Source: Aureibaculum luteum (GTDB taxonomy: Bacteria > Bacteroidota > Bacteroidia > Flavobacteriales > Flavobacteriaceae). From it: a stretch of 64,000 nt of DNA. How positions within the stretch are numbered: the first letter of the stretch is position 1; each line of letters begins with the position of its first letter. Shown piece after piece: positions 3,511-33,117 of this stretch. Made by a program: the position numbers and the translations under genes. A model generated the notes under the pieces. It had not been told where the DNA came from and ran no database searches. It was given only the letters and a program-made list of their open reading frames with translations. The DNA lies in assembly GCF_003449015.1 (NCBI RefSeq), contig NZ_QRGD01000001.1, positions 248,001 through 312,000 of the forward strand, written 5' to 3'.

Positions 3511-5619
3511 TTAACTTAATACAGTAAAGGTAATAAAAGAAGCCAAATAAGCCAAGGCCGTCATGCCGAAAAGCTGTAGCAATGGCCATTTCCAACTATT
3601 TGTTTCTCTTTTTACAATAGCCAAGGTACTTACACATTGCATGGCAAAAGCATAAAAAACCAATAACGACATTCCTACGGGGAAATTGAAACGTTTTTTT
3701 CCAGTATCCTGGTTTATTTCTGCCCCCATGCGTTCCTTAATCGTGTTGGTATTCTCATTATCTTCTACGCTGTAAATAGTTGCCAAAGTACTTACAAAAA
3801 CCTCTCTGGCAGCAAATGAGGTAATTAAGGCAATTCCAATTTTCCAATCGTAACCTAAGGGTTTTATAGCGGGTTCAATAGCCTTACCTGCAATACCTAT
3901 ATATGAATTTTCTAACTTATAGGTCGCAATATGCTTTTCTAATTCATCTTTATTCAATTGCTTGTTTTCCACTTTACTCTTAACAATTTCTTCAGCATTA
4001 TCAAAAGAAGCTGGACCATTAGAAGCTAAGAACCATAATATAATAGAAATTGCTAAAATGATTTTACCAGCACCAAACACAAATGCTTTTGTTTTTTCTA
4101 AAACAGTAAATACTATATTTTTTAATGAAGGTATTTTATAGGCAGGCATTTCAATTATAAAGAAACTTTTACCTTTTACTTTTAACGTTTTATTTAATAA
4201 CCATCCTGATGCAATAGCAGACGTAAAGCCCAATAGATACAATGACATTAATGCCAAACCTTGTAAGCTAAAAATACCCAAAATTCTTTGTTGTGGTATT
4301 ATTAAGGCAATTAAAATAGCATAAACAGGTAAACGAGCAGAGCATGTTGTAAATGGTGTAACCAAAATAGTTACTAAACGTTCTTTCCACCCTTCAATAT
4401 TTCGTGCAGCCATTATTGCCGGAATTGCACACGCAGTACCAGAAACTAATGGTACAACACTTTTACCACTCATACCAAAACGACGCATAATCTTATCCAT
4501 TAAAAAAACAACCCTACTCATATAGCCCGTTTCTTCAAGAATTGCAATGAATAAAAATAATATGGCTATCTGGGGTATAAAAATAACTATACCTCCAATA
4601 CCAGGAATAATACCTTCAACTAATAAATTACTAAATACACCTTCCGGTAATTGATTCTTCGTCCATTCACTTAAATTGGCAAAAGTGGAGTCTATTAAAT
4701 CCATCGGAACGGTAGCCCAATCAAAAATTGATTGAAAAATCAGTAATAATATAAAAGCAAAAATTAAATAACCAAAAATTTTATGGGTAAGTACTTTATC
4801 AATTTTATGACGCATACCCGTTGCTTTTTCAGCATCAGTTGTATATGTTTTTTTAAGTATGTGATTAATGTACTGATACCGCAGAATCGTTTCCTTATTC
4901 TGCATTTTATTGAATTTTACCTTGTCAGCTTTAAAACTCTCAATACGGTCTATAAATTTAGGAGGTACTGAAGTAAGGTTATGGCTTTGTGTTACTAAAA
5001 GCCAAGCTTTATATAAAGAAGTATCATTAAATTTTTCTTTTAATTCTTTAAAAAACTGTGCATCTATTCTATCAGCTATATCTGCAATTTTTAATGTATT
5101 CGCCTCTTTATAGTTGATTATTGCACGTTTTACTTTTCCAATTCCCAATCTTTTACGAGCACTAATTAGTACTACTTCTGATTTCAATTCCTTTTTAAGC
5201 AATTCAATATCAATGGAAATACCTCTCTTTTCCATGCGATCGGACATGTTGATAACCAAAATTGCAGGAATTTCTAAATCTTTAATTTGGCTGAACAAAA
5301 ACAAATTACGCTTCAAATTCTCAACATCAGCAACCACGACAACAACATCAGGATAATTTTTTTTATCAATACCTATAAATGTTTGTAAAACAATATTTTC
5401 ATCTAAACTTGAAGGGTTTATACTATAGGTACCAGGTAGGTCAGTAATCTTAGCAAAAACTTCTCCTTGCATCTTAGATGTTCCTGTTTTTTTTTCTACA
5501 GTTACACCCGGATAATTGCTTACCTTTTGATTTAAACCTGTTAACTGATTAAATAAAAGGGATTTACCAGTATTAGGATTCCCTACTAAAGCTACATTTA
5601 TGACTTCAGAATGTCGCAT
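3511..5619 (-). CDS. feoB: Ferrous iron transporter FeoB
   Basis: 702 residues. The N-terminal G domain carries the P-loop G-N-P-N-T-G-K-S (residues 13-20), a D-L-P-G-T-Y switch II and an N-M-S-D guanine-specificity motif. After a helical linker comes the polytopic membrane part from about residue 275, with the two Gate motifs recognisable around G-S/T-A-C-A-I-P-A-I and the later T-S-F-A-A-R-E-V-F. FeoB imports Fe(II) across the inner membrane in a GTPase-dependent way. Length fits bacterial FeoB. It overlaps feoA by 22 bp and is followed by the small Cys-rich partner, so the three form one operon. No Fur box was recognised by eye upstream of feoA. Confidence 0.97.
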   Translation of the reverse strand: MRHSEVINVALVGNPNTGKSLLFNQLTGLNQKVSNYPGVTVEKKTGTSKMQGEVFAKITDLPGTYSINPSSLDENIVLQTFIGIDKKNYPDVVVVVADVENLKRNLFLFSQIKDLEIPAILVINMSDRMEKRGISIDIELLKKELKSEVVLISARKRLGIGKVKRAIINYKEANTLKIADIADRIDAQFFKELKEKFNDTSLYKAWLLVTQSHNLTSVPPKFIDRIESFKADKVKFNKMQNKETILRYQYINHILKKTYTTDAEKATGMRHKIDKVLTHKIFGYLIFAFILLLIFQSIFDWATVPMDLIDSTFANLSEWTKNQLPEGVFSNLLVEGIIPGIGGIVIFIPQIAILFLFIAILEETGYMSRVVFLMDKIMRRFGMSGKSVVPLVSGTACAIPAIMAARNIEGWKERLVTILVTPFTTCSARLPVYAILIALIIPQQRILGIFSLQGLALMSLYLLGFTSAIASGWLLNKTLKVKGKSFFIIEMPAYKIPSLKNIVFTVLEKTKAFVFGAGKIILAISIILWFLASNGPASFDNAEEIVKSKVENKQLNKDELEKHIATYKLENSYIGIAGKAIEPAIKPLGYDWKIGIALITSFAAREVFVSTLATIYSVEDNENTNTIKERMGAEINQDTGKKRFNFPVGMSLLVFYAFAMQCVSTLAIVKRETNSWKWPLLQLFGMTALAYLASFITFTVLS

Positions 5620-11821: not shown

Positions 11822-14677
11822 TTACAAATTAATTACCCAAGAAACATAATACATAGAACCTAGTGATCCTGTACCAGGAGCAGCTCTAAATTCTTTTCCT
11901 CCAATATTAGTTCCACCTAATTTAAATGTTGATTTCATACGAGGAACAGAATAGTTAATTTGAGCATCTACAACGCTTCTAGCATCTATCATAGCATCTG
12001 CAAAAGATGATTCCCATAAATACTCATCACTCCATCTATAGTCAACTTTAAAACCAAAGTTTTTAAATAGACTTGTATTTCCAAAACCAACTTTCACCTT
12101 ATGCTCAGGAGTATTAAATCCAGCTTCATAATCAGGATCTGTATCTTGATCAAAATCAAATTTAGCAAACGTATAGTTAATACCAAAATCAAAAGTACTA
12201 AACACTTTAGTATTGATTCCTATAGTAGCACCATATGATGAAATATCTGCTTCTGAATTCGTATACACTTGAAATGGTTGGTAATCTCCGTTACCAATAG
12301 CTATTAAAGCAGTTGGAATCGGACCTCCTAATTCAGGTGGTAAATTGGTAATGTCTGAAGCTAAGTTCACACTTCCGTAATGAGGTGAAACTACTGTTTT
12401 ATTACCGATAAAGTCTTGATATATATTATAGTAAGCACTAGCATCTAACATTAACTTACCAAAACCAGCTCTATAACCTAATTCAAAAGCTTGAACTCTT
12501 TCTGGTTTTACATAAGCAAAATCAGCAACCTCTAATAAGGCTGGATTAGGTGTACCTTGAGCTGCACTTGCTCCAAAAGCTTGTAACGACGCCAATGTAA
12601 ATGCGTTTTCATATGCAGCCCTTCCTGATAATTCAACTGTTGCAGGAAAGCCTAAGAATTGAGCTGTTGGACTATTATCTAATGGTTTAGAAGTATATCT
12701 ATCTAGATTATCAGGAGCAGAACCAATTAAAATTGCCTGACCCGCATCTAAACCAATGTATTGATCTTGTGTAGTTGGGTTTCTAAATCCTGTTTGATAT
12801 GAAAATCTTAAATTCCTCGTTTTACCCTCACCTAATGAGTAAGAAATAGAAATTCTTGGAGAAATATTTCCATCAAAATTTTGTGCTTTGTCATATCTAA
12901 CTGATCCTGTAAGTTTCAGCCTATCATCAATTAACTTTTTCTGTACTTGCATATAAGCTCCATATTCGTCATAATGAATTGGACCATCATAATCAGTAAA
13001 TATAGTACCATTAGAATTCAAAACATATTGCCTGTATGAACCACCAATTTGTATTTCAGCAAAATCAATTGCTTTATGAAAATTATAATTTCCATCTGCA
13101 TGATACAATTTTGTTTGATCTTGAAATCTGGCTCCAGTATTTAAATCTGGATCTGAAGTAATAGCATCTAATTGAGCTTTAAACTCAGGAGTTCCAGGTT
13201 GCAAAGTAACATTGGCATCAGCAAACTGTCTAGCACCTGCATGTGCAGCATCTTGTGTTGACCCCTGTGCAATAGCACCTAAAAACGTTTGAGCATAAGC
13301 ACCAAACCATTGGTTTGCATTTGCTTTGTTCATATTAATACCCGCAAACCTCATATCATAAGAATCTCCAGCATCTTCATCAGTAACGTAACCTCTAATA
13401 AAAAAGTTATCATTTCTAATTTCAATTTTATGTTGTTGCATAAAGAAATTATTGATATTGTATCTGTTCGCACCTTGATAGATAGTGTTTCCTATTCCGA
13501 ATTTTGCATTATAGATCATTTCTAAATCATTTGCAAAAGGCCTGTAATGGAAAGCAAAACTAGCCTTAATACTTTCCGCTTCGTAATCGGTTAAGTCTGA
13601 TTCTTTATAACCAGTTCTAGAGATAGTTTGCTGACCTAAAGCAGACGCAACTGAAGCAGGAAAACCTGCCCCCAAAGCAGCAGCTTCAAAATCAATTGGT
13701 ACAGCAACTTCATCACCATAAATATTTGCTTGATCAAATGATGTAGCATTCCCAACATTTGAAATTATATCATCCGGATTACCAGCTCCGGCATCAATAT
13801 ATTGATTATAATCAGTAGCATACCATTCAGTACCTTGTAAATAAGATAATGTTGCCTTAGCAGCAAACTTTTCACTAAATTTATATGCGGCTCTAATTCC
13901 AAGATCATAATACGGATTATCTCCGGCAGCATCTTGCATGGTAAGTCCCGTTTTAAAATAAGTACTTATACCAGCATCATCAAAAGGACTTTTACTAGTC
14001 ATAAAAAGTACACCATTAAAAGCATTTGCACCGTATAATGCAGAAGATGCTCCTGGTAATAACTCAACAGTATTAATGTCTAATTCAGACATACCAAGTA
14101 AATTACCCAATGCAAAATTTAAAGCAGGTGAAGAGTTATCCATTCCATCTACCAGCTGCATAAAACGAGTATTAGCGAATGTAGCAAAACCTCTAGTATT
14201 AATAGACTTAAAAGTTAAACTACTCGTACTAACATCTACACCTTTCATATTTTCTAATCCATTATAAAAACTTTCTGAAGATGTGTTTTTAATATCTCTA
14301 GCATCCATACGTTCAATAGTAACTGGAGATTCAAGAATACGCTCTGGTGTTCTAGAGGCAGAAATCACAACTTCATCAAGTTGATTACTTTCATTAAGCA
14401 TAAAATCCAACGTCTGAGTTGCCATAGTGACTTCAGCAGTAACTAACTCTAAACCTAAAAAACTAGCTTGAATAGAAAATGGTGGTGATTGATCTACTTT
14501 TAAATTGTAGAGACCATCAAAATCAGTAGCTGTACCAATAGTGGTACCTACTACAATAATACTAGCACCCGGAACCGGATCGCCATTCGAATCTGTTACT
14601 TTTCCTGAAACCACAGTTTGGGCCCCAATTAAAGTGACAAACAATAAAGTAAATGCAAGAGCAAAATATTTGTTCAT
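11822..14677 (-). CDS. TonB-dependent outer-membrane receptor with carboxypeptidase-regulatory-like N-domain
   Basis: 951 residues from the ATG at 14677, which opens a signal peptide (M-N-K-Y-F-A-L...I-G-A-Q). An upstream ATG at 14767 adds 30 residues that mask the signal and is rejected. Residues 24-110 form a carboxypeptidase-D-regulatory-like domain (V-S-G-K-V-T-D ... G-T-A-T-D-F-D-G-L-Y). A plug domain follows (about 125-235, with V-E-L-L-P-G-A-S-S-A-L-Y-G), then a 22-strand-type barrel ending in ...M-Y-Y-V-S-W-V-I-N-L. It takes up a ligand across the outer membrane with TonB energy. No SusD partner is adjacent, so a glycan PUL is unlikely; the substrate cannot be told. It ends at a strong terminator and seems to be a single-gene unit. 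Confidence 0.93.
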   Translation of the reverse strand: MNKYFALAFTLLFVTLIGAQTVVSGKVTDSNGDPVPGASIIVVGTTIGTATDFDGLYNLKVDQSPPFSIQASFLGLELVTAEVTMATQTLDFMLNESNQLDEVVISASRTPERILESPVTIERMDARDIKNTSSESFYNGLENMKGVDVSTSSLTFKSINTRGFATFANTRFMQLVDGMDNSSPALNFALGNLLGMSELDINTVELLPGASSALYGANAFNGVLFMTSKSPFDDAGISTYFKTGLTMQDAAGDNPYYDLGIRAAYKFSEKFAAKATLSYLQGTEWYATDYNQYIDAGAGNPDDIISNVGNATSFDQANIYGDEVAVPIDFEAAALGAGFPASVASALGQQTISRTGYKESDLTDYEAESIKASFAFHYRPFANDLEMIYNAKFGIGNTIYQGANRYNINNFFMQQHKIEIRNDNFFIRGYVTDEDAGDSYDMRFAGINMNKANANQWFGAYAQTFLGAIAQGSTQDAAHAGARQFADANVTLQPGTPEFKAQLDAITSDPDLNTGARFQDQTKLYHADGNYNFHKAIDFAEIQIGGSYRQYVLNSNGTIFTDYDGPIHYDEYGAYMQVQKKLIDDRLKLTGSVRYDKAQNFDGNISPRISISYSLGEGKTRNLRFSYQTGFRNPTTQDQYIGLDAGQAILIGSAPDNLDRYTSKPLDNSPTAQFLGFPATVELSGRAAYENAFTLASLQAFGASAAQGTPNPALLEVADFAYVKPERVQAFELGYRAGFGKLMLDASAYYNIYQDFIGNKTVVSPHYGSVNLASDITNLPPELGGPIPTALIAIGNGDYQPFQVYTNSEADISSYGATIGINTKVFSTFDFGINYTFAKFDFDQDTDPDYEAGFNTPEHKVKVGFGNTSLFKNFGFKVDYRWSDEYLWESSFADAMIDARSVVDAQINYSVPRMKSTFKLGGTNIGGKEFRAAPGTGSLGSMYYVSWVINL

Positions 14678-29790: not shown

Positions 29791-30708
29791 ATGAGAAAAA
29801 TTGTATTTCTTTCATTTATATTTTTATTGTTATTAAGTTGTGATGATCTTGAATTAACTATTAAAGACAAAATCATCAAAAATGATGTATTTGTAATTGA
29901 CCCTGATAATCAAAATTTCGGAGCGGAAGGTTCTTTTTGTTACGGATTTTCTGAACCCACTACCAGTAATAAAGCCAATATTGATATTCCATTAGAATTT
30001 CCAAATTCAGTAGATATCTCCACTTTATTACCACCAATTGGAAATCAAGGCAAACAAGGTTCTTGCGTGGCATGGGCCGCAGGATATTACCTAAAAGGAT
30101 TTCAAGAAAATCTTGAAGACAAAAACAACAGCATTCAAAGTCCTAACAACTTATTAAGTCCTGCTTTTATTTACAATCAAATTAAGGTTACTGACTGTGC
30201 CAGTGGTTCGCAAATACCTAGTGCCTTAGAACTAATTTCTAATACTGGTATAGTGTCACTAAATGAAATGCCTTATAATGAAAATGAATGTGACAAACAG
30301 CCTTCTGAAGAACAAATCAATCTAGCAGAAGAGAATAAAATTCTTTCATTTTCTTATTTGGATGGCAATGAACTTTTTGATCAGGCTAAGGCTTTCTTAA
30401 ATAACAATCAACCTATTGTTATTGCTATTTCTATTGACAGAAATCATTTTGGAAAAATAGATATCAACGGAGATTCCGTTTACCGAGAATTTGAGAATAC
30501 TGATGGAGCACATGCAATGTTAGTCGTTGGCTATAATGACGATAAAAGTGCCTTTAGAGCTGTAAACTCCTGGGGAGAAAACTGGGGAAACAGTGGCTTT
30601 GTTTGGATAGATTATAAAGCATTTAAAGATGTATTGAATACAGACTCAGAATTCAAAATATTATGCGAAGCTTGGGTTACTGAAGACAAAATAATACCTG
30701 CTATTTAA
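29791..30708 (+). CDS. Papain-like (C1A) cysteine protease lipoprotein
   Basis: 305 residues from the ATG at 29791, which opens a lipoprotein signal (M-R-K-I-V-F-L-S ... L-L-L-L-S-C-D-D). The C1A active site is complete: Q-G-S-C-V-A-W-A with Cys92, D-G-A-H-A-M-L with His241 and N-S-W-G-x2-W-G with Asn259, plus an upstream Gln (G-N-Q-G-K-Q-G). It is probably an active protease tethered to the outer or inner membrane. An earlier TTG at 29713 would put 26 residues before the signal and is rejected. The gene runs towards sigZ, sharing the bases TTAA of the stop codons. Confidence 0.9.
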   Translation: MRKIVFLSFIFLLLLSCDDLELTIKDKIIKNDVFVIDPDNQNFGAEGSFCYGFSEPTTSNKANIDIPLEFPNSVDISTLLPPIGNQGKQGSCVAWAAGYYLKGFQENLEDKNNSIQSPNNLLSPAFIYNQIKVTDCASGSQIPSALELISNTGIVSLNEMPYNENECDKQPSEEQINLAEENKILSFSYLDGNELFDQAKAFLNNNQPIVIAISIDRNHFGKIDINGDSVYREFENTDGAHAMLVVGYNDDKSAFRAVNSWGENWGNSGFVWIDYKAFKDVLNTDSEFKILCEAWVTEDKIIPAI

Positions 30709-31274
30709 CTACATACCTTGCAGTCTTCTTTACTTTTAAGTTCACCTACCAATTTCCCTTTTTCATTCAATTCGTAACCGCAGCAATCCATAAAACCCTG
30801 AGCAATCAATTTTCTGCCTCGCTGAATTTGTGACTTGACGGTTGGTAATGGTAAATCTAAAATTTCGGCTATTTCTTGATGTTTAATCCCCTTTATATCA
30901 GCCATAAACAAAGGGTCTCTATATTTCTTTTCTAAGCTTCTAATAATTCCGTATAAACAATCATGTTCTGTATGCTCAAAGAAATCTGCTGTATGATCAT
31001 CTAAATCCACAATATCCATCTCCATTTTTTCAGCAGCTGAAATACTATATTTTCTTTTAGAAGACCTAAAATAATCCATTATGGTATTATTAGCCACTGT
31101 AAAAAGCCAAGATTTTAGTTTATGCACATCTTGTACACTAGATATTTTAGTATGTACTTTTACAAATACCTCTTGTAGTAAATCATCCGTTATATTTTCG
31201 TCTTTTGTTTTAGACAAAATAAAGTGTTTTACATCTTCAGAATAAGTATTCCATATAATTTTTGTGTCGGTCAT
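30705..31274 (-). CDS. sigZ: RNA polymerase sigma factor SigZ
   Basis: 189 residues, an ECF-type sigma factor: region 2 (D-D-L-L-Q-E-V-F-V-K-V, W-L-F-T-V-A-N-N) and region 4 (H-Q-E-I-A-E-I-L-D-L-P-x-P-T-V-K-S-Q-I-Q-R-G). The C-terminal tail carries Cys-Cys, 19 residues and then C-x2-C, which could bind a metal or form disulfides. No anti-sigma gene is adjacent. It lies 147 bp downstream of the Cys-rich miniprotein gene, with an inverted-repeat element between them. It ends in the shared TTAA stop with the papain-like gene. Confidence 0.9.
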   Translation of the reverse strand: MTDTKIIWNTYSEDVKHFILSKTKDENITDDLLQEVFVKVHTKISSVQDVHKLKSWLFTVANNTIMDYFRSSKRKYSISAAEKMEMDIVDLDDHTADFFEHTEHDCLYGIIRSLEKKYRDPLFMADIKGIKHQEIAEILDLPLPTVKSQIQRGRKLIAQGFMDCCGYELNEKGKLVGELKSKEDCKVCS

Positions 31275-31310
31275 AAAAAATAATTCTTAAATTCAATAGT
31301 TGCAAAAGGC

Positions 31311-31379
31311 TGTCAGGTTGAGCCGAGTTTAAACCTCTTTATCATTAGATGAAAAGTTCTCAACTATACTCAACCGACA
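31311..31379. repeat. Degenerate REP/MITE-like inverted repeat
   Basis: TGTCAGGTTGAG at the left and CTCAACCGACA at the right face each other, with further imperfect pairing inside (GAGTTTAAACCT against AAGTTCTCAACT). The sequence resembles the short non-coding repeats scattered in flavobacterial intergenic DNA. It sits between the miniprotein gene and sigZ. Confidence 0.5.
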
Positions 31380-31421
31380 ACATTAAACTTTATTTCTTAA
31401 ATATATTCAAGAAAGCAGTTT

Positions 31422-31523
31422 TTAACAATTACACCCTGAACAATTACAATTATCGCAAGTGCAATTTGCACAGGTTCCGTTTTTACACCCATCACAATCA
31501 CAGGTACATGTTGTATCTTTCAT
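31422..31523 (-). CDS. Metallothionein-like Cys-rich miniprotein (33 aa)
   Basis: 33 residues with 11 cysteines and no His: C-x-C-x-C-x2-C-x4-C-x2-C-x-C-x2-C-x-C-x2-C-x-C from Cys6 to Cys33. The ATG at 31523 and the TAA at 31422-31424 are clear. Repeated C-x-C and C-x2-C spacing is the pattern of metallothioneins, which bind Zn, Cd, Cu or other soft metals through thiolates. It has no signal peptide, so it is presumably cytoplasmic. It lies upstream of sigZ in the same direction, between sigZ and the GH3-family gene. A metal-buffering or metal-delivery role is inferred; no homologue was identified by name. Confidence 0.75.
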   Translation of the reverse strand: MKDTTCTCDCDGCKNGTCANCTCDNCNCSGCNC

Positions 31524-31590
31524 AATATTAAGTTTAAATTATACTTCTTTTCTATCAATAAGACGAAGAAGTTTTAAAAAAGATGCACTT

Positions 31591-33117
31591 TTAAACCACT
31601 TTTTCTGAAGTAGACATTTCTAACAACTCATCCATAAAACCTCTACTATTAGATAGTCTTGGTACTTTGTGTTGTCCGCCTAGTTTATTTTTAAACTTTA
31701 ACCAATCGTAGAACAGACCTGTTTCGGCTTGATGGACTTTAGGCATGGTTAAGGTCATATCATTATAGCGTTTGGCTTCATAATCTGAATTAATAGACTT
31801 TAAAGCATTGTCCAATAATTCTGTAAAGTAATTTAAATTCTTGGGAGCTTTTGTAAATTCAATCATCCATTCATGAGAACCTTGTATTTTACCGTCCATA
31901 AATATAGGTGCCACAGTATAATCAGTAATTAACGTTTTTGTTTTTTCGCAGACTTGTCTTAAAGCCTCCTCTGCGTTTTCGATGATTAATTCTTCACCAA
32001 ATACATTAATAAAATGTTTAGTTCTACCCGTAATTCTAATCCGAAAGGGATCTAAAGAAACAAACTTAACGGTATCTCCAATTAAATACCTCCACAATCC
32101 AGCATTGGTTGTAATTACGATTGCATAATTAATGTCTAATTTTACCTCATCTAACGGAATAGCTATTGAATTTTCTCCATTAAATTCTGACATCGGAATA
32201 AATTCGTAGAAAATACCATAATCTAACATTAATAATAAATCTGTAGAATCATTGGTATCCTGCAACGCAAAAAAACCTTCAGATGCATTATAGGTTTCGT
32301 AATATCTAAAGTCTTTTTTAGGAATTAATTTCTTGTATTGCTCTCGATAGGGATTAAAGTTTACTCCACCATGAAAATACACTTCCAAGTTGGGCCAAAC
32401 TTCTAAAATATTATCCTTGCCTGTTTTTTTCAAAACAGCATTTAATAAAACGAGCATCCATGAAGGTACACCAACTAAACTGGTAATATTTTCATTAATA
32501 GTTTCATTAACAATGGCATCCATTTTAGTCTCCCATTCGCTCATTAAAGCCACCTCTGTTTTGGGAGAAGAACTAAAATCTGCCCAAAATGGCATGTTTT
32601 CAATAATTATAGCCGATAAATCGCCAAAATAAGTATTATTATCTTCATAAATAGCACTACTTCCTCCTAAACGCAATCCACGTCCGTTAAACAAACCAGC
32701 ATCTTCATTATTGTTTATGTAGAGAGCAAGCATGTCCTTTCCTGCCTTTAAATGGCAATTTTCTAAAGCCTCGTTACTTACCGGAATAAACTTACTTTTT
32801 GCATTTGTGGTACCACTAGATTTAGCAAACCATTGTATTTGCGTAGGCCAAAATAAGTTTTGCTCCCCTTTTCTAGCCCGCTCAATTAAAGGTTCAAAAG
32901 TTTCATATTGCTGAATAGGAACTTTATTTCTAAACGTTTCATAATTGTATATGGAAGCGAAATGATACTGTTTACCAAACTCCGTATTTTTAGCCATTTC
33001 AACTAAGCGTATCATGAGCTCATGTTGAACATCAATAGGGTATTTAAGAAAAAGCTCCATTTGATGCTTTCTCTTTTTTAAAAACCAAGAAACTACGGTG
33101 TTAAATAAAGGCAACAT
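31591..33117 (-). CDS. GH3 auxin-responsive-promoter family protein (ANL-type enzyme)
   Basis: 508 residues matching bacterial GH3-family proteins over the full length. The ATP-binding motif K-S-S-G-T-T-N-A-K-S-K-F-I-P-V-S is followed by Y-x-A-S-E-G-F-F (motif 2 equivalent) and R-I-T-G-R-T-K-H-F-I-N-V-F-G-E-E near residue 360. GH3 enzymes adenylate carboxylic acids and join them to amino acids; in bacteria the substrates are largely unknown. It is a single gene, divergent from purE and 67 bp upstream of the Cys-rich miniprotein. Confidence 0.9.
   Translation of the reverse strand: MLPLFNTVVSWFLKKRKHQMELFLKYPIDVQHELMIRLVEMAKNTEFGKQYHFASIYNYETFRNKVPIQQYETFEPLIERARKGEQNLFWPTQIQWFAKSSGTTNAKSKFIPVSNEALENCHLKAGKDMLALYINNNEDAGLFNGRGLRLGGSSAIYEDNNTYFGDLSAIIIENMPFWADFSSSPKTEVALMSEWETKMDAIVNETINENITSLVGVPSWMLVLLNAVLKKTGKDNILEVWPNLEVYFHGGVNFNPYREQYKKLIPKKDFRYYETYNASEGFFALQDTNDSTDLLLMLDYGIFYEFIPMSEFNGENSIAIPLDEVKLDINYAIVITTNAGLWRYLIGDTVKFVSLDPFRIRITGRTKHFINVFGEELIIENAEEALRQVCEKTKTLITDYTVAPIFMDGKIQGSHEWMIEFTKAPKNLNYFTELLDNALKSINSDYEAKRYNDMTLTMPKVHQAETGLFYDWLKFKNKLGGQHKVPRLSNSRGFMDELLEMSTSEKVV

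Follow-up and report, generated by a model that had tools for sequence, protein, structure and literature searches.

The window analysed here is a stretch of 64,000 nucleotides from Aureibaculum luteum, and its minus strand holds at 31422-31523 a gene running from ATG to TAA for a 33-residue peptide, with 11 cysteines in CxC/CxxC spacing all along its length and neither histidine nor aromatic residues. A sequence-only reading had described a minus-strand protein of 33 residues and 11 cysteines with a metallothionein-like C-x-C/C-x2-C pattern, and the frame was found at exactly that place and strand with the spacing as described. Metallothioneins in the broad sense are proteins of less than 10 kDa with about 30% cysteine in CxC/CxxC clusters and few aromatic residues. 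The composition of the window peptide agrees with this definition, and all 11 cysteines are invariant in 32 aligned rows. In 60 first-order Markov versions of the window, no ORF combined an ATG start, at least 25 aa, at least 8 cysteines and at least 25% cysteine, the top cysteine fraction being 0.21. The real window holds two such ORFs, the peptide gene and a 26-aa ORF at 13230-13310 on the minus strand, which has 8 cysteines in an arrangement unlike that of the peptide and is probably spurious.

The gene that adjoins the peptide gene downstream, on the same strand and after a gap of 147 nt, encodes a sigma factor of 189 aa with regions 2 and 4 (30705-31274, minus strand). The same reading had called it the ECF sigma factor SigZ. 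The ECF assignment stands, with PF04542, PF08281 and TIGR02937 (sigma70-ECF) all above their cut-offs, whereas the name SigZ was loose: the SigZ equivalogs TIGR02959 and NF007215 are the two best NCBIfam matches and score 151.7 bits against a cut-off of 168.65 and 167.3 bits against a cut-off of 212, and the protein is therefore termed SigZ-like. Five of its cysteines are invariant, namely Cys106 at the start of region 4 (codon at 30957-30959, minus strand; 30 of 30 proteins) and, in all 29 proteins uncut by a contig end, the pairs CC 164-165 and CxxC 185-188; this five-cysteine signature recurred in 35 of 35 rows of the sigma profile alignment. The C-terminus reads DCC...DCKVC, in agreement with the Cys-Cys and C-x2-C noted before, and the whole tail, CC(164-165)-x19-C185-x2-C188 (30711-30785, minus strand), is the proposed sensor. 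An AlphaFold2 model of the protein has a mean pLDDT of 81 and a pTM of 0.45, the blocks at 161-180 reaching 80-83 and the last nine residues 65. We know of no clear job for SigZ, and none was given in the titles and abstract openings of the literature searched.

An RNA hairpin is predicted in the gap between the two genes (31309-31381, minus strand; z -4.1 in the fold of the 147-nt gap), and it is possibly a leaky terminator that would keep sigma mRNA scarcer than peptide mRNA. At 47 of 54 sigZ loci, the first 90 nt past the peptide gene fold with z < -2, in sequences that differ and over a stretch that can reach into sigZ; in the window, this stretch gives z -0.7 and the long hairpin is set further towards sigZ. 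The segment 31309-31381 is a long imperfect inverted repeat that may be an intergenic repeat, and its 15-base arm motif has no second copy in the window. A riboswitch or other known RNA at the locus was ruled out by an Rfam search that gave no match up to E 1 across 30600-31800. Upstream of the pair lies a GH3-family gene (31591-33117, minus strand), for which the best NCBIfam match is OlsH (lyso-ornithine lipid synthetase) at 430.7 bits against a cut-off of 620. Beyond sigZ, a papain-family protease gene is found on the other strand.

Conservation of the peptide and its pairing with the sigma factor

The peptide is a real, conserved gene under purifying selection. Within the genus, a protein search at E<=0.1 detected it in 6 of 17 genomes; across the family, matches were obtained in 68 of 397 genomes (E<=0.01), or 65 after removal of three that matched only via 17-residue stretches inside ORFs of 429-449 aa. 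Among 33 fetched loci, 32 keep all 11 cysteines in register with their spacing, and cysteines are the sole invariant columns in the alignment of these 32 peptides. The exception, L033, has 8 of the 11 cysteines and comes from a genome that is 87% complete and has no match to the sigma clade. Among loci added later, L143 has 10 cysteines and L150 is disrupted, so that over both sets the pattern is held by 71 of 73 loci (all except L033 and L150), which collapse to 58 sequence-distinct loci, 54 of them with sigZ downstream. The regular expressions used for the two sets together and for the type-B set described below demand most of the cysteines; the first set of 33 and the scan of paralogue loci are less conditioned. 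Pairwise dN/dS within the genus is 0.03-0.27 for 14 of 15 pairs, dS being saturated in the fifteenth. Cysteine codons switch between TGT (447) and TGC (190), and in these loci, preselected by their cysteine pattern, 1 of 638 is not a cysteine codon. In a draw across the phylum, the peptide of the window's type (type A) was present in 5 of 395 genomes, all from the window's family, and a scan of named records gave 37 loci titled Flavobacteriia or unclassified Bacteroidetes plus one Saprospiraceae MAG. Mobile spread on plasmids was set aside after tblastn with one peptide of each type gave no plasmid match at E<=1, in a search whose low-complexity filter may hide such sequences.

The peptide is short and repetitive, and the curated families of Pfam and NCBIfam gave no match at E<=10, either for the window peptide or for the type-B peptides sent, though HMMER filters can lose weak matches of proteins this short; a PDB profile search gave a best E of 5.2. 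These features would fit a spurious ORF or the precursor of a modified natural product. Such an origin is nonetheless very improbable given the dN/dS values, the fixed cysteine register, the lack of a leader region and the fact that, besides the sigma gene, no immediate neighbour is common to more than 6 of 35 loci.

The pairing with the sigma factor was already plain in the first set, where 30 of 32 peptide genes have the sigma gene downstream of them in the same orientation. When a profile built from 35 sigma proteins was searched against the 397 family genomes, it gave 109 matches in 101 genomes; 52 genomes score at least 188 bits and the next match 161 bits, and the cut that defines the sigma clade was chosen post hoc at this gap. 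A peptide gene lies within 1.5 kb of the sigma gene in all 52 sigma-clade genomes, and the peptide occurs without the clade in 13 of the other 345; related genomes among the 397 are not independent draws, and a Fisher test on these counts takes no account of kinship. In one of the 52 pairs, that of G203, the sigma frame is interrupted by two stops and the peptide match is partial. Within the genus, the identical 6 of 17 genomes hold both genes and the remaining 11 neither (sigma orthologue taken at E<1e-60). Named flavobacteria in which the pair is present include Aureibaculum marinum, Winogradskyella thalassocola and Polaribacter aquimarinus. The sequence-only reading, which had drawn the link between peptide and sigma factor from position and composition, had proposed two checks: retention of the frame and cysteine pattern beside sigZ in relatives, and protein-level selection. 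Both came out in its favour, by the 32 of 33 loci in full register and the 52 of 52 genomes in one case and by the dN/dS range within the genus in the other, and the comparison across loci, together with one conserved ECF-type promoter before the pair, bears the link out. In L150, a Urechidicola croceus MAG, peptide and sigma genes are both disrupted from about position 4001, which suggests that the two lost function together.

Neighbouring genes were clustered at the 37 named loci, using ORFs of 80 aa or longer, and 35 of these loci contained the sigma gene. Except for the peptide gene, no immediate neighbour is common to more than 6 of these 35. The gene found most often directly downstream, on the opposite strand in 6 loci, gave no match in Pfam. 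Other genes recur in the vicinity, among them one of methylmalonyl-CoA mutase type on the upstream side in 19 loci and one on the opposite strand on the downstream side in 11. A larger operon was considered and rejected because none of the recurring genes directly adjoins the pair in more than 6 of the 35 loci, and they are taken for inherited neighbourhood.

Genomes that carry the peptide without the sigma clade bear on what the peptide does. In G151 (84% complete, no sigma clade), a same-strand run consists of a cation-efflux (CDF) gene, a gene for an MBL-fold protein and, last, the peptide gene; the CDF protein is 49% identical to that of the window's genome, and this arrangement connects the peptide with metal handling without recourse to sigZ. 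In G347, the peptide lies downstream of an MBL-fold gene; in G287 and G068, a carbonic anhydrase gene is found close by. It is conceivable that the peptide mainly regulates SigZ, passing metal to or from its tail or binding it in the manner of an anti-sigma factor, with detoxification of minor importance. A sigma clade never found without the peptide (52 of 52) would fit such a role, as would the joint disruption in L150. We consider it rather unlikely, as 13 genomes have retained the peptide though they lack the sigma clade, in one case next to CDF and MBL-fold genes, so that the peptide seems to act in its own right.

Two further arrangements were seen among loci where sigZ is absent. At L014 (1304-2550) and L211 (1987-3138), the peptide gene stands, by eye, beside what seem to be the opposite-strand and Lrp-like genes that elsewhere come after sigZ, and both loci look as if sigZ had dropped out. 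At L140, from Frigoriflavimonas asaccharolytica, two peptide copies (1908-2018 and 4001-4111) lie 2 kb apart; no sigZ was found in the 8-kb locus, and the peptide copy that was scanned has no promoter box.

A conserved promoter ahead of the pair and of a CDF exporter gene

The pair is preceded by a conserved promoter of ECF type with the consensus TGCATCTTTTT-N11-CGTCTWWT at fixed spacing, which the window matches exactly at 31558-31587 on the minus strand, with the -35 element TGCATCTTTTT at 31577-31587 and the -10 element CGTCTTAT at 31558-31565, the latter also placed by comparison of loci. A loose two-box pattern was found in 29 of 32 loci, with identical spacing in all 29; the misses are L014 and L018, where sigZ is absent, and L028, which has a weak -35. 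Among the 54 sequence-distinct sigZ loci, 51 have the promoter with at most two mismatches (50 in the main scan and L124, which has an exact site further upstream), and the remaining ones have three (L126) or four (L139 and L149). Of 15 peptide loci without sigZ, 14 show nothing better than six mismatches, two of these loci holding only 127 and 225 nt of upstream sequence, and L033, with its decayed peptide, has a three-mismatch box at -55. In the 397 family genomes, all 26 exact copies of the promoter lie at a peptide-sigZ pair, and of the 32 sites with one mismatch, 22 are no more than 1.5 kb from sigZ and 10 are elsewhere. Because the motif was derived from the very loci at which it was counted, its frequency at these loci is descriptive, and the genome-wide count and the tests on CDF genes and sigma-negative genomes are more independent. 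CGTC is the classic ECF -10 core, and a -35 element with CGTC at such spacing is the classic form of an ECF promoter, which makes autoregulation the natural, if putative, reading.

Two of the sites outside the usual position deserve mention. A DUF3703 gene directly upstream of a peptide-sigZ pair (G325; L225, 972-1353) has its own promoter box, which is counted among the 22 one-mismatch sites near sigZ. A SigZ-like paralogue without the CC/CxxC tail (G392; L221, 1143-3500) precedes two PhzF-like genes, with boxes of one and three mismatches.

The genome of the window holds five sites with at most two mismatches, against two for the backwards control, and one of the four weaker sites is 17 bp before the ATG of a CDF gene. 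The CDF protein matches Pfam Cation_efflux and ZT_dimer, and its closest equivalog is ZitB, with a score below the cut-off of that model. Its visible HxxxD motifs, HDLGD and HLLED, are presumably of the zinc/cadmium type. In the genus, all five sigma-positive genomes with a CDF 77-100% identical to it have a box at -44 to -48, with two mismatches in G000, three in each of G001, G002 and G003, and five (of 19) in G013. The sixth sigma-positive genome, G005 (68% complete), gave no CDF match. The sigma-negative G004 and G011, with CDFs 74-75% identical, have no box, the best site showing eight mismatches, and none was found at loci L065-L068 of sigma-negative congeners, with CDFs 35-37% identical; L069 was left out of the comparison. 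A position weight matrix trained on sites from outside the genus scores the boxes of G000, G001, G002, G013 and G003 at 22.6, 18.8, 18.8, 4.0 and 7.8, and the best sites of the sigma-negative pair at -16.1 and -15.1. Over 749,559 background positions, these five scores are reached by 1, 3, 3, 41 and 15 positions, or 1.3e-6 to 5.5e-5 per position; as G000-G002 are closely related, the five boxes do not count as independent.

Outside the genus, 20 CDF loci were obtained from 19 of 24 sigma-positive genomes, and four of the 20 have a box with at most three mismatches, before the CDF gene in G146 and G099 and before an rpiB-CDF pair in G379 and G215. The other 16 loci have no box within three mismatches, but 17 of the 20 CDFs are just 31-36% identical to that of the window's genome and may not be orthologues. 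The box is also absent at the closer CDFs of G397 (53%) and G157 (43%). In G382, a one-mismatch box precedes rpiB-CDF though the sigma clade is absent. That box, like the 10 of 32 one-mismatch sites found elsewhere, is what one would expect if some other sigma factor read the conserved promoter and SigZ were a passenger in the operon. This we hold to be quite unlikely, as 26 of 26 exact sites lie at sigZ and the CDF boxes of the genus track the presence of sigZ.

The sequence-only reading had spoken of a soft-metal or thiol-stress unit, and the weaker promoter copy ahead of a CDF metal-efflux gene favours the soft-metal half over the other. As a thiol or redox stress unit, SigZ would sense disulfide or electrophile stress through its cysteines and the peptide would serve as a thiol buffer. 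The invariant candidate sensor residues are indeed cysteines, and an ECF relative on an Arenibacter plasmid adjoins thioredoxin, permease and oxidoreductase genes. Against this, a metal exporter gene follows one of the promoter copies in the genome of the window, the peptide stands in one same-strand run with a CDF gene in G151, where the sigma clade is absent, and CxC/CxxC spacing kept at 32 of 33 loci suggests clusters rather than bulk thiol. Thiol stress is thus an unlikely signal for the pair.

Known systems and a proposed metal-response module

Taken as a whole, the peptide and the SigZ-like sigma factor are best read as an autoregulated, self-activating metal-response module, to which we assign a probability of about 0.72. 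The metal is probably zinc/cadmium, which is preferred to copper mainly because of the CDF link.

The excerpted sources on CorE of Myxococcus xanthus offer a precedent, in that a cysteine-rich tail can render an ECF sigma factor metal-dependent (PMC3107203); CorE2 is described in the same partial way as responding to Cd and Zn (PMC10141476). According to these excerpts, CorE and CorE2 are ECF factors with a C-terminal cysteine extension, as is the window sigma factor, and they have metal-efflux targets and no linked anti-sigma factor (PMC3107203, PMC8999054, PMC10141476). The CorE targets named in the excerpt are a multicopper oxidase, P1B ATPases and a heavy-metal-associated-domain gene (PMC3107203). 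No metallothionein is among the targets described there (PMC3107203), whereas the window sigma factor pairs with a metallothionein-like peptide. The cysteines also differ: the tail CC-x19-C-x2-C of the window sigma factor stands against four invariant cysteines, 181, 184, 192 and 194, given for the CRD of CorE (PMC3107203, in part), and near region 4 the single Cys106 stands against a CxC in CorE (PMC3107203, PMC8999054, both in part). The window sigma factor has neither the CxC between regions 2 and 4 nor the CRD spacing that mark CorE-like factors (ECF44/ECF238), and with its different spacing it would at most work like CorE and is not a CorE member.

The sigma tail itself appears to be of wider occurrence. 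Two Vibrio SigZ proteins share with the window sigma factor both the CC/CxxC tail and the cysteine before region 4, and a Priestia SigZ shares the CC and the cysteine before region 4 and differs in the absence of CxxC. No such peptide gene was found in the 1.5-2.5 kb flanks of Bacillus/Vibrio-type SigZ genes, where the one cysteine-rich ORF (L163; 29 aa, 7 cysteines) lies on the other strand and more than 1 kb away. The tail is thus probably older than the pairing, being present in Vibrio and in part in Priestia, and, as the Vibrio SigZ has the tail without an adjacent peptide gene, it need not serve the pairing.

On the peptide side, the bacterial metallothioneins SmtA/BmtA (PF02069) and MymT are likewise small, with about one third cysteine in CxC/CxxC spacing. 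The window peptide departs from all of these in giving no profile match (E<=10), in having no histidine or aromatic residue and in having a sigma factor as its partner. MymT is linked to a metal regulator via the RicR regulon, as stated in the excerpted source (PMC10141476).

In the proposed mechanism, the activity of SigZ would be set by metal, or by a metal-dependent thiol state, at C106 and the CC/CxxC tail, without an anti-sigma factor. A rise in cytoplasmic zinc, cadmium or a similar soft metal would lead SigZ to guide RNA polymerase to promoters of the TGCATCTTTTT-N11-CGTCTWWT type. SigZ would then turn on its own operon, giving much peptide and, past the hairpin, some SigZ, and in some lineages it may also turn on the CDF exporter. 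The feedback would close as the putative metallothionein binds up metal and the exporter takes it out, upon which SigZ would return to rest. The 11 cysteines of the peptide could accommodate three or four divalent ions. A partial search of the literature found no description of a peptide-SigZ pairing.

The type-B peptide and its sigma factors

Paralogues of the sigma factor were sampled at 20 loci (L231-L250) of 57 weaker matches, mostly from the top of the list, and 15 of the 20 carry just upstream, on the same strand, another peptide of 37-38 aa with 14 cysteines (e.g., L231, 859-972). In this type-B peptide, all 14 cysteines are invariant in an alignment of 15 rows, and the 23-base register of its promoter is kept in 15 of 15 sites. 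As for the -35, all 15 type-B sites carry T at its third base, against C in 50 of 53 type-A sites. Such a shift with the sigma clade speaks against the promoter being read by another sigma factor with SigZ as a passenger. Across the 20 paralogue loci, the CxxC of the sigma tail and the peptide occur together in 14 and are both missing in four, an association that would also suit a peptide acting mainly on its sigma factor; two loci are discordant, L235 with the peptide and no CxxC and L239 with CxxC and no peptide.

A tree of the sigma factors, rooted as chosen, unites the 35 type-A rows in a single weakly supported group (0.39). The type-A and type-B peptide profiles align with an hhalign probability of 90, a match driven by cysteines on which no homology is claimed. 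The 15 type-B genomes seen and the 52 type-A genomes do not overlap, and nothing is drawn from this, as only about two shared genomes would be expected by chance.

A broader reading, which we hold tentatively and at somewhat less than even odds, is that self-contained switches, each made up of a sigma factor and a metallothionein with an insulated promoter of its own, occur as a family in flavobacteria, and that the metallothionein would be both the output and the ligand buffer that resets the switch. On this view, sigma factor, promoter and metallothionein would have diverged together along two or more insulated lineages, among them, with the same reserve, type A, with 33 aa, 11 cysteines and the -35 TGCATC, and type B, with 37 aa, 14 cysteines and the -35 TGTATC. 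The two peptide families have no Pfam or NCBIfam match and are short enough to escape gene finders. With promoter, partner and target class in hand, the function of this SigZ clade becomes directly testable, and if the metal-response reading is true, sigma factors with built-in cysteine tails would join the known regulators of metallothioneins.
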